From Sphingopyxis sp. 113P3 (GTDB lineage Bacteria > Pseudomonadota > Alphaproteobacteria > Sphingomonadales > Sphingomonadaceae): a stretch of DNA of 64,000 nucleotides. The notes beneath the pieces were generated by a model, which ran no database searches, was not told the origin of the DNA, and saw nothing but the letters and a program-made list of their open reading frames with translations. Each line of letters opens with the position of its first letter. Within the stretch, counting starts at the first letter, position 1. The DNA lies in assembly GCF_001278035.1 (NCBI RefSeq), contig NZ_CP009452.1, positions 2,141,501 through 2,205,500 of the forward strand, read 5' to 3'. The translations under genes and the position numbers were made by a program. Below, piece after piece: positions 1 through 47,294 of the stretch.

Positions 1-1215
1 GAGAAAAATCTCCTCATAGGTGTTCGCGTGGACGTTCCCGATGCGAAAACGGGTATCGCCCATTTCCGCCAGCATTCGGGCTTCATCGGACGCATACACG
101 TCGCCATCGTAGTTATAGACCACCGCCCCAATGCCGATACCGGCCGGACTCATTAGATCAACATAACCCGGCTGAAAGGGAGTGAGCATCTTCTGCAAGA
201 TCATCGCCGCATAGTGTTCGACGAACGGGAAGCCGCCAAGGTTCAGGTCGATGATATAGTCTAGACCTTCAAAATAGAAATCGAGCCACTTGGTTTCGTT
301 GTATGCGGCATAGGATTTCGTTTTGACGGCAAACCCATACGGGCTGAGCGGTCGCAGGAAGATGCCGTCGAAATCCTGCGCAATGTATTCGTCAATTATG
401 TCGCGCACCCGCGACAGGCTGGCCGCCGTGGTCGTCATCAACGCGCCCACTTGGTCACGGCCCAACGCCATGCGCGCGCGATGAATGCCCGCGATGGCAC
501 GGGCATGAGAGTCGCCGCCTGGGCGCGGCCGGTTTTTGTTGTGCAGATCGGCAGGCCCATCAAGCGACGTGGAAATCAGGACTTGATGGCGGGCCGCCAG
601 CGCCAGCGCTCGGTCATCTAAGACGGCAAGGTTGGTTGCCAACACGAACGCCAGATCGCGCTGTTCGTGTTCGTTCCGCCGTTTGGCTTCCTCAATGATA
701 AACTCGACCAGATCGAGGTTCAGCAACGACTCACCGCCCTGAAACTCAATCTTGATGGCGGGCGATGGCGAACGAAACACGAGATCAAGGCTCTTGAGCG
801 CCGTTTCCCGTGTTATATCGAACTCGCGGCGATCATCGTTGGCGCGAGACACTTGGCAGTATGGGCAGGAGTGTTCGCAGCGAAGCGTCACCACAAAGAT
901 GTGCAGGCCGGTAAAGTTGGCCAGCGGGCTTAGCTTGGTGCGGACTTTGAGGGCCAAGAGATCGAGCGCAACGTCAGAGTCGCCGTCTATCAGGAAATGC
1001 TTGGACTTTAGCTCATTGTATAATTCGTCCTGATACGAAAGCTGCCCATCGGCAAAGGCACGCAGGGACTTACGTTCCGTAATGACGAACTCGCCAACGA
1101 GATTGGTCAACACATAGCGATCACCTGAAAGCGGCATAAACCGATAGGGCAACGGCTGGTAGCCACCAGCCGCCATCGGCTTCTCATATTCGGCAAGGGT
1201 AAGGAACTTAGCCAT
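1..1215 (-). CDS. hxsB: His-Xaa-Ser system radical SAM maturase HxsB (partial, 3' end outside window)
   Basis: This frame is open from the ATG at 1215 to the window edge, giving 405 codons with no stop; the C-terminus is missing. The radical-SAM cluster motif CEHSCPYC (C113, C117, C120) is visible, followed by the FQGGES motif (GGE at 160-162). In the Hxs family HxsB is one of two radical-SAM enzymes thought to modify the repeat peptide HxsA, using a 4Fe-4S cluster and S-adenosylmethionine; the chemistry is not something I can read here. The start overlaps the hxsD stop by 8 bases, so the genes are co-transcribed and probably translationally coupled. The second maturase, hxsC, is expected just to the left, outside the window. 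The family assignment rests on the SAM motifs combined with the hxsA-hxsD context. Confidence 0.9.
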   Translation of the reverse strand, partial: MAKFLTLAEYEKPMAAGGYQPLPYRFMPLSGDRYVLTNLVGEFVITERKSLRAFADGQLSYQDELYNELKSKHFLIDGDSDVALDLLALKVRTKLSPLANFTGLHIFVVTLRCEHSCPYCQVSRANDDRREFDITRETALKSLDLVFRSPSPAIKIEFQGGESLLNLDLVEFIIEEAKRRNEHEQRDLAFVLATNLAVLDDRALALAARHQVLISTSLDGPADLHNKNRPRPGGDSHARAIAGIHRARMALGRDQVGALMTTTAASLSRVRDIIDEYIAQDFDGIFLRPLSPYGFAVKTKSYAAYNETKWLDFYFEGLDYIIDLNLGGFPFVEHYAAMILQKMLTPFQPGYVDLMSPAGIGIGAVVYNYDGDVYASDEARMLAEMGDTRFRIGNVHANTYEEIFL

Positions 1216-1504
1216 TTTGGGATAGGTGCGAGAACGCCAGCCCAAGGATCATATTGCGCAGCGGCTCGGTCTTGGCTTCGACTTCAAGCCGCAAGTCTTG
1301 GTCGAGCACTTCGCGCTGAAAGTCGCGCACAAGCTGCGCCACGTCCTCACCTGACGCTGGCTCAATCGTGCAGCGCACTTCGGCATCACTCGGATCAATG
1401 GAAATGGTCCCTCGCGCCATGAGGGCGTAGGCAGCCCGCTTAATCGCTTCAAGCGAGTATAGACCGGCCGCAAACGCGACCGTCGCACCCCCAACCTGAC
1501 TCAC
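1208..1504 (-). CDS. hxsD: His-Xaa-Ser system protein HxsD
   Basis: A 98-residue soluble protein between hxsA and hxsB. It has the family's typical size and a segment around residues 58-73 (VRDFQREVLDQDLR) that resembles the conserved LLNDYxLRE-type signature of HxsD. Its role is unknown; small partner proteins of radical-SAM maturases often guide the substrate peptide, but that is inference. The stop codon overlaps the hxsB start by 8 bases and the gene begins 33 bases after the hxsA stop, so hxsA, hxsD and hxsB form one leftward operon. No signal peptide or membrane segment is visible. Confidence 0.85.
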   Translation of the reverse strand: MSQVGGATVAFAAGLYSLEAIKRAAYALMARGTISIDPSDAEVRCTIEPASGEDVAQLVRDFQREVLDQDLRLEVEAKTEPLRNMILGLAFSHLSQNG

Positions 1505-1537
1505 ATTCCCCCCTAACCGGCGGACGAACCGCCGTTG

Positions 1538-1810
1538 TTAATACGAACTGGAGTAATGCGAGCGATGGCTCGAATGGGACGAGTGCGAACTATGCGACGA
1601 GTGCGAGCGATGAGAAGAATGGGCTGCAAAATGAACAGCCGCGTCGCTGGCGCGATCAATCGTCAGGTCAGCACCGGCAAGCGGTTCGGCAGATGCAATG
1701 CTGGCCGCCGTCTTTTCCGAGACAAGCTCAGGAACCGCAGCTTGCGCCTGCGCGGAACCGAGTAGCGCTGCTACGGATACAGCTAACGGCTTTAGAAACT
1801 TGCGATTCAT
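1538..1810 (-). CDS. hxsA: His-Xaa-Ser repeat peptide HxsA (radical SAM substrate)
   Basis: A 90-residue precursor. Residues 1-25 form a signal-peptide-like stretch (basic MNRKFLK, then a hydrophobic core ending AQAQA). Residues 26-63 are a spacer. Residues 64-87 are eight uninterrupted His-Xaa-Ser triplets (HSS, HRS, HSS x4, HRS, HYS), followed by a terminal SSY. This composition defines HxsA, the proposed target of the HxsB and HxsC radical-SAM enzymes. The presence of an export signal suggests that the modified peptide acts outside the cytoplasm; its function is not established. It is the first gene of the leftward hxs operon, with 288 bases separating its start from the divergent fic start. 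Confidence 0.92.
   Translation of the reverse strand: MNRKFLKPLAVSVAALLGSAQAQAAVPELVSEKTAASIASAEPLAGADLTIDRASDAAVHFAAHSSHRSHSSHSSHSSHSSHRSHYSSSY
1550..1621 (-). repeat. Coding repeat of eight His-Xaa-Ser triplets
   Basis: Nine-base units encode the eight HxS triplets of HxsA. At the DNA level the run reads on the + strand as degenerate copies of a gag/cga/tgg pattern. Such arrays expand and contract by slippage, so triplet number probably varies between strains. Confidence 0.85.
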
Positions 1811-2026
1811 CCACTACCCCCTCTTACTCAACCACTTTGCGCGCCCCACTTGTTCACGCGCCAGATCAATCGGATACCACGACAATCGCGCAAAATAGTT
1901 ATTAAAAAGTATCAGGAAAGCAGTCGAGAGTCCATGCTTGTGGAGGCATGGGGGCGTATCACGGCGACACAACTAGCGATGACGATGGAGCGATGTGAGA
2001 TTCCTGCTCGTGAACGCCCCTACCGA

Positions 2027-2090
2027 ATCGGATGGAAATGGATGGATAATTGGTTTATCCCGCCACAGGCATCGGATGGAAATGGATGGA
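2027..2090. repeat. Two perfect 20-bp direct repeats upstream of fic
   Basis: The sequence atcggatggaaatggatgga occurs at 2027-2046 and again at 2071-2090, 44 bases apart start to start. The second copy ends 8 bases before the fic ATG and supplies the GGATGGA ribosome-binding region. 44 bases is about four helical turns, so the pair could be an operator read on one DNA face, or simply a small duplication. Confidence 0.75.
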
Positions 2091-2098
2091 ACAATAGC

Positions 2099-3151
2099 AT
2101 GGCGCTCGAAATTTCAACGCTTCGCATCACCCCCGCAATCCTGTCTTTGATCGCCGAGATTGACGAGTTCAAGGGGGCGTGGCGCGCGTTGGGACGGATC
2201 GCGCCGGAACGGCTCTCCAATTTGCGACATGTAGCTACCATCGAAAGCATAGGTTCTTCCACCCGCATCGAGGGTGCGAGACTCAGTGATCGCGACGTGG
2301 AGAAGCTGCTGGCGAATTTGCGTATCGGCTCGTTCGCCACACGCGATGAGCAGGAGGTGGCGGGCTATGCCAAGGCGATGGACACGATATTCGGGGCCTA
2401 TGATTCGATACCGCTGACCGAAAATCATATCCGGCAACTTCACCGCGACCTTCTGGCCCATTCGGCAAAGGATGAGCGGCATCGCGGGTCATACAAGACC
2501 TTGGCGAACCACGTGGAAGCCTTCGATGAGGACGGGAAAAGCCTAGGCGTCATATTCGAGACGGCCACGCCGTTCGACACGCCCCGCCGGATGGCGGAAC
2601 TGCTGGAATGGACGGCCGAGCGGGAGAAGGACAAGAGCCTTCACCCGCTGCTGGTGATCGGAATCTTTGTCGTGGTGTTTCTCGCCATCCATCCCTTTCA
2701 GGACGGCAATGGCCGTCTTTCCCGTATCCTGACCACGCTGATGCTTATGCGCGCCGGATATGCCTATGTGCCCTACAGTTCGCTGGAAAGCGTGATCGAG
2801 CAGAACAAGGACGGCTATTACCTGTCGTTGCGGCGCACCCAAGGCACCATCGCAACCGCCGACCCCGACTGGAATCCGTGGCTGGAATTCTTCCTGCGGG
2901 CATTGCAGCGCCAGAAGCAGCGGCTTGAAAAGAAGATGGAGCGCGAGCGGATCATTCTTGCCGATCTTCCCGAACTGTCCGTCCTGATCCTCGAACTGGC
3001 GCGCGAGCATGGCCGCATCACCGTGGCAGAGGCGGCGCGTGCAAGCGGCGCGAGCCGCCACACCGTCAAGGACCATCTCAAATCGCTTGTCGAGCAGGGC
3101 CATCTAGCCTTGCACGGTGCCGGGAGGGGCGCTTGGTATGGCCTTGCATGA
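2099..3151 (+). CDS. Fic-family protein with C-terminal winged helix (putative AMPylase)
   Basis: A 350-residue Fic protein. Fic domains usually transfer AMP from ATP to a hydroxyl side chain of a target protein. The catalytic loop HPFQDGNGRLSR (H198 to R209) matches the canonical HPFxxGNGRxxR. The N-terminal segment contains STRIEG (54-59), matching the inhibitory motif [S/T]xxxE[G/N] with E58, so this is an autoinhibited class II Fic. The last 70 residues look like a winged helix-turn-helix (AAARASGASRHTVKDHL region), a common DNA-binding addition. The ATG at 2099 is chosen because earlier in-frame starts read through the 20-bp direct repeat into low-complexity, non-conserved residues. Divergent from hxsA; whether they are functionally linked is unknown. 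Confidence 0.9.
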   Translation: MALEISTLRITPAILSLIAEIDEFKGAWRALGRIAPERLSNLRHVATIESIGSSTRIEGARLSDRDVEKLLANLRIGSFATRDEQEVAGYAKAMDTIFGAYDSIPLTENHIRQLHRDLLAHSAKDERHRGSYKTLANHVEAFDEDGKSLGVIFETATPFDTPRRMAELLEWTAEREKDKSLHPLLVIGIFVVVFLAIHPFQDGNGRLSRILTTLMLMRAGYAYVPYSSLESVIEQNKDGYYLSLRRTQGTIATADPDWNPWLEFFLRALQRQKQRLEKKMERERIILADLPELSVLILELAREHGRITVAEAARASGASRHTVKDHLKSLVEQGHLALHGAGRGAWYGLA

Positions 3152-45989: not shown

Positions 45990-47294
45990 GGCTCTTCCTC
46001 GTGAACGGGGGATGAGGGAAATTGGGTTAGACTTGTCATAGGAAGGACAAGTCTGATGAAGAAGAAGGCTGATCAGGGAATCGACGGCATATTAGGGCTG
46101 TCGGATGTTGAGATTGTCCGTGTCGAGCGGCGACGCGACATTCGTGTGTGGGCGCGGCCAACGAAGCGGCCTGTTTGCCTTTATTGCGGCCACGGGGGGC
46201 TGCGGATCAAGGCGACTTATGAGCGCGAGCTCAAGCACACGCGTCAAGGCAACCAGATCCTGATCGTGCACCTTGCGGTGCCCAAATATCATTGTGCCGG
46301 TTGCGGCCGCTATTTCCGTCATCGCTTTTCGGGCATCCGTCCGCGCTATCGCGCGACGGAGACGTACCGTCTTGAGGTCTTCGACGGTCACCACGGAGGC
46401 ATCAGCCAAAGCCAGTTGACGAGCACCCATGCGATCGGCAGTGCAACCATCGAGCGCTGGTATCATCATTTCATCGAACAGCGCGTCTCGGAGCTGTCCG
46501 GTCGGCCCTGCCCGCAGGTCCTGGGGATCGACGAGCATTTTTTCTCGCGCAAGAGAGGCTATGCGACGACATTTGTCGATCTGAAGAATCACAAGGTCTA
46601 CGATGTCGTCCCGGGACGCTCGGAAGACAGTTTACGAAGCTATTTGCGAAGGTTGCCAGGGCGCGACAAGGTCAAGGTCATCGTGATGGACCTGTCGGAA
46701 ACCTATCGCGCAATCGCCCGCAAATATTTTCCGAACGCGAAGATCGTCGCCGATCGCTTCCATGTCATTCGGCTGCTCAACCAGCATTTCCTCGAAGGAT
46801 GGAAGCGCTTCGATCCCGAGGGCCGAAAGAATCGCGGGCTGCTCAGTTTGATGCGGCGCCATCGATGGAAGCTAAGCGAAGAACAGCGCAAAAGGCTGGC
46901 CGTCTACCTGAAAGCCAATCCGGTGCTCGAAGCCCTCTACACTGCCAAGCAGGACATGGCCCTCCTGCTGACGCAAAAATCCCTCAATGCCAAAAAGGCC
47001 AGCCAGCTTATCCCCGACCTGCTCAGGCTGATCGATCAGTTCGCCGCCAGCCCCCTCAAGTCCCTCGCCGATACCCTGACCAGCTGGCTCGAGCCCGTCG
47101 CCCGCATGTGGCGCTTTTCCAGGAACAATGGAATCACCGAGGGCTTTCACACAAAGATGGAGATGATCTCGCGCCGCGCGTTCGGCTTCCGCAACTTTCA
47201 CAACTACCGCTTGCGCGTGCTCGCTCTTTGCGGTTGGAATGGCGTCATCAATCGGGTCTGATCCACCCTCATCCCCCGTTCACGGGGAAGAGCC
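45990..47294. mobile_element. Complete ISL3-family insertion sequence (1305 bp)
   Basis: Terminal inverted repeats of 29 bases at 45990-46018 and 47266-47294 match at 28 positions (starting ggctcttcc). Perfect 8-bp direct repeats aagggtcg flank it at 45982-45989 and 47295-47302, the target duplication size of ISL3 elements. The transposase gene is intact, so the insertion looks recent and possibly active. Confidence 0.93.
46056..47261 (+). CDS. ISL3-family transposase
   Basis: A 401-residue transposase. The N-terminal zinc-binding region has CLYCGHGG and YHCAGCGRYF, followed by a helix-turn-helix. The DDE residues are visible: Asp in VLGIDEHFFSRKRGYATTF, Asp in VIVMDLSETYRAIARKYF and Glu in NGITEGFHTKMEMISRRAFG. 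No frameshift or stop. It lies 38 bases inside the left inverted repeat and ends 5 bases before the right one. Confidence 0.96.
   Translation: MKKKADQGIDGILGLSDVEIVRVERRRDIRVWARPTKRPVCLYCGHGGLRIKATYERELKHTRQGNQILIVHLAVPKYHCAGCGRYFRHRFSGIRPRYRATETYRLEVFDGHHGGISQSQLTSTHAIGSATIERWYHHFIEQRVSELSGRPCPQVLGIDEHFFSRKRGYATTFVDLKNHKVYDVVPGRSEDSLRSYLRRLPGRDKVKVIVMDLSETYRAIARKYFPNAKIVADRFHVIRLLNQHFLEGWKRFDPEGRKNRGLLSLMRRHRWKLSEEQRKRLAVYLKANPVLEALYTAKQDMALLLTQKSLNAKKASQLIPDLLRLIDQFAASPLKSLADTLTSWLEPVARMWRFSRNNGITEGFHTKMEMISRRAFGFRNFHNYRLRVLALCGWNGVINRV

Follow-up and report, generated by a model that had tools for sequence, protein, structure and literature searches.

A complete hxsA-hxsD-hxsB-hxsC operon with an eight-triplet His-Xaa-Ser array in Sphingopyxis sp. 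113P3

The left edge of a 64,000-nucleotide stretch of Sphingopyxis sp. 113P3 (contig NZ_CP009452.1; hereafter the window, whose base 1 is base 2141501 of contig C1) carries a His-Xaa-Ser (Hxs) system. The complete set hxsA-hxsD-hxsB-hxsC is present, and the window edge cuts the operon. HxsA ends in a tandem array of His-Xaa-Ser (HxS) triplets, HxsB and HxsC are radical S-adenosylmethionine (SAM) proteins, and HxsD is a small partner. Because these parts are linked in a conserved manner, are under purifying selection, and include a signal peptide, the system very probably modifies the HxS array of HxsA before its export by the Sec pathway. The Hxs family was reportedly named by Haft and Basu in 2011. 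A passage of PMC9062424 cites Haft and Basu on the family. No report of an Hxs product or of Hxs chemistry was recognised in the openly licensed papers searched, in line with the original prediction, made from the letters of the window, that the family is known computationally and its product is not established.

Of the four proteins, three score above their curated NCBIfam cut-offs. HxsB reaches 588.6 bits to TIGR03978 (cut-off 370), HxsC, which is encoded directly downstream of hxsB, reaches 410.4 bits to TIGR03977 (cut-off 267.9), and HxsD passes TIGR03976 narrowly with 52.8 bits (cut-off 50). A profile search of the genome (4,664,213 bases in two contigs) returns a single match above cut-off for each of HxsB, HxsC, and HxsD and places the hxsC family match left of the window on the minus strand (C1:2140137-2141009, 411.3 bits). 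The original prediction had described an exported peptide with eight HxS triplets, an HxsD-like partner, and a radical SAM protein with a CxxxCxxC motif at the left edge, and it had been staked on an hxsC gene left of position 1 and on a match of the radical SAM protein to the HxsB profile. The three proteins are as described, both the gene and the match were found, and the identification as an Hxs system is further supported by the gene order A-D-B-C, the commonest among the loci fetched. The NCBIfam search that had been proposed with it succeeded for HxsB, HxsC, and HxsD and fell short for HxsA. The genes were also said to overlap in one operon, which holds for hxsD and hxsB (8 bp, taking the ATG at 1215 as the likely hxsB start) and for hxsB and hxsC (as ATGA at the hxsB stop, outside the window), and does not hold for hxsA and hxsD, which are separated by a gap of 33 bp. 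HxsB has 488 residues from its likely ATG, HxsD has 98, and HxsC has 386 or 391 depending on the start chosen.

In its four parts, its A-D-B-C order, its tandem array, and its exported precursor the operon is like the known Hxs systems (TIGR03976 for HxsD, TIGR03977 for HxsC, and TIGR03978 for HxsB). Set against the HxsA types (TIGR03979, NF038296, NF038309, and NF038313), the host HxsA is short, array-terminated, and below the cut-offs of the three models it matches. It is a small in-operon protein with eight tandem HxS repeats, and the name HxsA rests on this array, the putative signal peptide, and the gene position. The HxsA models for the short type may need widening. On the Sphingobium plasmid pTK1 (L131 9418-10011), two small genes that occupy the hxsA and hxsD places before a named hxsB are annotated as hypothetical protein, as low HxsA scores would predict.

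HxsA has a Sec-like start (MNRKFLK / PLAVSVAALLGSA / QAQA-A). The array follows the order HSS HRS HSS HSS HSS HSS HRS HYS without interruption, with three residues between its end and the C terminus. Shuffling the 65-residue mature part 200,000 times gave in-register runs of at most four triplets (in 11 shuffles), so that an (HxS)8 array is not expected by chance; elsewhere in the six frames of the window, contiguous triplets occur once, as a run of two. That HxsA probably leaves the cytoplasm, as had been proposed, gains support from its relatives, since 57 of 59 short HxsA proteins satisfy a crude signal-peptide rule devised for this analysis. Among six long HxsA relatives scanned, three contain the peptidoglycan-binding domain PG_binding_1, a fusion that would anchor the array at the peptidoglycan in those proteins.

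The selection acting on the operon can be read from its nearest relative found, that of Sphingobium jiangsuense DSM 26189 (HxsC 96%). Between the two hxsA genes there are 14 synonymous and two non-synonymous differences, and the protein sequence of the array is identical. The ratios of non-synonymous to synonymous substitution rates (dN/dS) are 0.04 for hxsA, 0.09 for hxsD, 0.04 for hxsB, and 0.13 for hxsC. The operon is under purifying selection. The two genomes have a block of 3,338 bp in common (93.5%), which begins 130 bp upstream of hxsA and stops close to the end of hxsC; the flanks compared have no further sequence in common.

The linkage of the parts was followed across 104 loci, which comprise the host, 23 loci from two genome draws, and the best 80 of 536 confirmed relatives in named genomes; counts from this set, in which several contigs are short, lean to HxsC proteins close to that of the host. 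A tandem run of at least four triplets lies in an open reading frame (ORF) near hxsC in 97 of them. The 86 distinct arrays have five (24 arrays), six (40), seven (12), eight (4), nine (5), or ten (1) triplets. The middle position of 531 triplets is taken by S (237), R (102), A (90), Y (54), T (11), G (9), H (7), V (6), E (6), Q (4), N (2), M (2), and K (1), and never by C, D, F, I, L, P, or W. In 46 of the 97 arrays the Ser position is encoded by both TCN and AGY codons, evidence against an origin of these arrays by simple, recent duplication of a single unit.

A script assigned the layouts as A-D-B-C in 75 loci (including a false hxsA at L101), B-C-A in 13, D-B-C-A in nine, hxsA on both sides in one, and incomplete in six. 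In 54 of the 66 distinct arrays from loci with hxsA first, two to three residues separate the array from the C terminus; in all 20 from loci with hxsA last, at least 97 further residues follow the array. The placement of hxsA requires at least four changes on a quick HxsC tree that has only Shimodaira-Hasegawa-like approximate likelihood ratio (SH-aLRT) support and on which long branches meet. The host and S. jiangsuense fall there in a starred set of nine rows with seven named Pseudomonadota and one Planctomycetota. A fifth conserved gene did not emerge: in an all-against-all BLAST of the flanks, no family of ORFs of at least 60 residues occurs in more than 12 of the 104 loci, and the largest (12 loci) is regulator-like and scattered in place and strand.

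The segment leading into the array is also conserved, as judged from 66 non-redundant precursors of the 97 (one too short and 30 near-duplicates excluded). Position -3 is a large hydrophobic residue in 76% of the precursors with hxsA first (46 rows) and in 95% of those with hxsA last (20 rows), and Ala occupies position -2 in 33 of the 46 and 17 of the 20, respectively. Further upstream lies a hydrophobic strip, at about -15 to -13 in the A-first precursors (83% at -14) and at -15, -14, and -11 in the A-last precursors. The host segment DLTIDRASDAAVHFAA, which precedes the first HSS, agrees with this pattern at -15 (L), -13 (I), -3 (F), and -2 (A) and departs from it at -14 (T). The hydrophobic strip is likely the docking site for the maturase.

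The site that would receive this strip is suggested by the architecture of HxsB. Its N terminus has the order E-E-E-H-H-E-H (E, strand; H, helix) ahead of the radical SAM core and aligns to CteB from its residue 1. The secondary-structure order required of a RiPP (ribosomally synthesized and post-translationally modified peptide) recognition element (RRE) is given in a passage of PMC12710340. An RRE at the N terminus of a maturase would have three strands followed by helices, and the N-terminal domain of HxsB may be RRE-like, with peptide binding as a putative function. HxsD lacks the RRE order and is predicted to fold as beta-alpha-beta-beta-alpha (predicted local distance difference test (pLDDT) 91.5).

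The invariant cysteines number exactly seven in aligned HxsB (55 of the 73 usable HxsB from the 80 named loci, with the B-C-A type from the draws left out) and exactly seven in aligned HxsC (16 rows covering the family region without the N terminus). Beyond CxxxCxxC, the cysteines of CxxCx5C...C are the only invariant ones in all 55 HxsB rows. An additional HxsB cysteine, present in 47 of 55 rows, lies within the core, where the closest relative has Ala instead. By this count, seven cysteines per enzyme would be enough for one auxiliary cluster. HxsB does not have the cysteines for two auxiliary clusters that two-cluster SPASM enzymes have.

From these elements a sequence of events can be proposed. 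HxsA, by its sequence, comprises a Sec signal peptide followed by a spacer and then the array. In the cytoplasm the RRE-like domain of HxsB would grip the hydrophobic strip about 13 to 15 residues before the array, with HxsD as a putative non-RRE partner or scaffold. HxsB and HxsC, each with a radical SAM [4Fe-4S] site and ligands for one auxiliary cluster, would then modify the triplets, as their co-conservation suggests. The product would exit by Sec and act in the cell envelope; in some other lineages a fused domain would keep it at the peptidoglycan. Export by Sec is unusual for a RiPP; the bufferins are a precedent. They are described in a passage of PMC12452194 as RiPP-type precursors with a Sec signal peptide, which HxsA resembles, and they hold copper. 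In bufferins MNIO enzymes act on Cys, whereas in Hxs radical SAM enzymes stand beside His/Ser arrays.

As to the chemistry, a carbon-carbon link from the imidazole of His(i) to the C-beta of Ser(i+2) is a tentative guess that is held with limited confidence, although it is the likeliest of the reactions considered. It is made because the H-x-S array has the same i to i+2 spacing as the triceptide motifs, and it would give a ladder of three-residue rings. According to a passage of PMC11002830, triceptide enzymes link His(i) C2 to the C-beta of Ala or Arg(i+2) and Phe(i) to the C-beta of Ser(i+2), and the triceptide systems (XncB, OscB, MscB, HaaB, and YhhB) likewise use a SPASM-type radical SAM enzyme on a three-residue motif. 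Hxs differs from them in its two radical SAM genes, in hxsD, in its tandem array of five to ten motifs, and in that its link is putative. Somewhat doubtful is the further idea that fused three-residue His-Ser rings turn the exported array into a rigid ladder, with at most ten rings per chain in the loci examined. Such a poly-imidazole rod would keep its nitrogens free, and these, spaced at regular intervals, could relay metal or protons in the envelope. The radical SAM protein does not reach the cut-offs of the cyclophane models (55 of 445 bits for YhhB and 37.8 of 310 bits for GrrM/OscB).

Several observations weigh against this account, in its core or in its chemistry. Six models outscore YhhB on HxsB: PapB (84.3 bits), nif11-peptide maturase (74.8), quinohemoprotein maturase (67.8), CcpM (63.5), sulfatase maturase (58.6), and RumMC (57.1). 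The family scores therefore do not single out cyclophane chemistry. The HxsB positions aligned with the upstream SPASM cysteines of the anaerobic sulfatase maturase (anSME) are not Cys, and a single type of cross-link does not account for the presence of two radical enzymes beside one repeated motif. HxsA reaches only 29.6 of 55 bits for the HxsA4 model, 26 of 48 for HxsA2, and 22.9 of 121.65 for TIGR03979. The linkage has gaps as well: no tandem array was found nearby in seven of the 104 loci (the surrounding 4.5 kb give no candidate in six, some of which are on short contigs, and the candidate at L101 has no run), hxsD is recovered by profile in only 87, and hxsC stands alone at L067 and L097. 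The openly licensed literature searched yielded no Hxs product and no mass or nuclear magnetic resonance data.

Other chemistries were weighed. HxsB could work like the anaerobic sulfatase maturase and convert each triplet's Ser to an aldehyde or a different oxidised form, with His as base or ligand and HxsC performing a second step. This is unlikely: HxsB differs from both this maturase and CteB in lacking the upstream SPASM cysteines, so that one auxiliary cluster seems absent, and the triplet His is left without a clear role in the reaction. The anaerobic sulfatase maturase, moreover, targets one site in an enzyme and is not known to act on tandem arrays. It is likewise improbable that the reaction is an epimerisation or hydroxylation within the array, or one at X, with His and Ser needed only for recognition or metal binding. 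Epimerases are among the radical SAM peptide enzymes (a passage of PMC11002830), and the choice of X is far from random, as S, R, A, and Y account for 483 of 531 residues; yet 13 different residues occur at X, which makes a reaction that needs one particular X unlikely.

The original prediction had also suggested that the exported peptide may be a metal ligand. HxsA might be mainly an unmodified, His-rich metal buffer of the periplasm, with HxsB and HxsC directed at something else. Eight spaced histidines in an exported protein would suit such a role, as would the copper-holding bufferins. It is nevertheless a highly improbable explanation, given that hxsA accompanies the two radical SAM genes in loci from several phyla and that 73 upstream regions give no signal of a Fur, Zur, or CueR box. 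Regulation by metals through such boxes was rejected, though only weakly, after a scan of 73 of the 75 regions 5' of hxsA (two under 150 bp dropped), in which the consensus scores were not above those in one mononucleotide shuffle of each region. There is next to no chance that the locus is a decaying remnant in a stretch rich in insertion sequences: transposase genes do lie to its left (Pfam) and transposase-like ORFs to its right (by eye only), but all four frames are open and the dN/dS values against S. jiangsuense are low.

The distribution of Hxs is wide but patchy. Hxs occurs in 11 of 296 genomes drawn from the order of the host and in 15 of 398 drawn from its phylum, with the host counted in both. 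HxsB relatives are found on 359 plasmid records at E 1e-40, 315 of them from Klebsiella and 288 predicted to be conjugative, and on two phage records. The gene adjoining hxs in S. jiangsuense has weak, sub-cut-off matches to serine recombinases. Passages of two papers list hxs genes within a region of a Pseudomonas aeruginosa clone (PMC8446631) and present hxs in Vibrio parahaemolyticus as the alternative to another gene set at one site (PMC6537148). In the host, two copies of a 401-residue transposase-like protein in opposite orientation (L003 9756-10961, minus strand; window 46056-47261, plus strand), identical by eye in their first 60 residues, flank a stretch of about 52 kb that contains hxs.

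The coordinates of the operon are collected in Table 1. Divergent from hxsA lies a Fic-family gene (PF02661; window 1850-3151, plus strand), whose real start is probably inside the listed ORF; nothing in the flanks of hxs in S. jiangsuense matches it at the nucleotide level. In other loci, a methyltransferase-like ORF cluster is found near hxsC in eight of 104 (L068, L087, L089, L096, L098, L100, L102, and L105); the ORF is directly downstream on the same strand in six of the eight, and the L087 copy, the only one scanned, has weak matches. A MauG-like diheme family lies downstream of hxs in five loci of two layouts (L027, L030, L031, L033, and L129), and a TIGR03982-type small protein adjoins it in four of the five. 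NCBIfam describes TIGR03981 as Hxs-associated MauG-like. Of three MauG-like proteins scanned, two pass this model and the L129 protein falls below it (329.4 of 340 bits); TIGR03981 has no match in the host genome. At L067, a Legionella feeleii contig, hxsC has no detectable hxsB, hxsD, or HxS array nearby.

Table 1. Features of the hxs operon; positions refer to the window unless stated otherwise.
Feature	Position	Strand	Basis
hxsA, predicted exported precursor of 90 residues: signal peptide, spacer, C-terminal (HxS)8 array	1538..1810	-	sequence, shuffles, sub-cut-off profile scores
Eight HxS triplets, HxsA residues 64-87	1550..1621	-	sequence and shuffles
hxsD, 98-residue partner, predicted beta-alpha-beta-beta-long alpha	1208..1504	-	TIGR03976, 52.8 bits; model pLDDT 91.5
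hxsB 5' part, radical SAM maturase with CxxxCxxC	1..1215	-	TIGR03978; last 252 bases left of the window, then hxsC
hxsC	L003 15093-16268, outside the window	-	TIGR03977, 410.4 bits
Presumed promoter region, 130 bp 5' of hxsA, alignable with S. jiangsuense	1811..1940	-	edge of the 3,338-bp block

The host operon adds a member to a named family. The cysteine count, the RRE-like domain of HxsB, and the motif before the array lead to direct, testable predictions for Hxs. Because the host copy is small, complete, conserved, and array-terminated, releasing and measuring the modified stretch should be easy. If the ladder of His-Ser rings is real, Hxs would constitute a new class of Sec-exported RiPP whose biosynthesis takes two radical SAM enzymes, each with a single auxiliary cluster, and a non-RRE partner.
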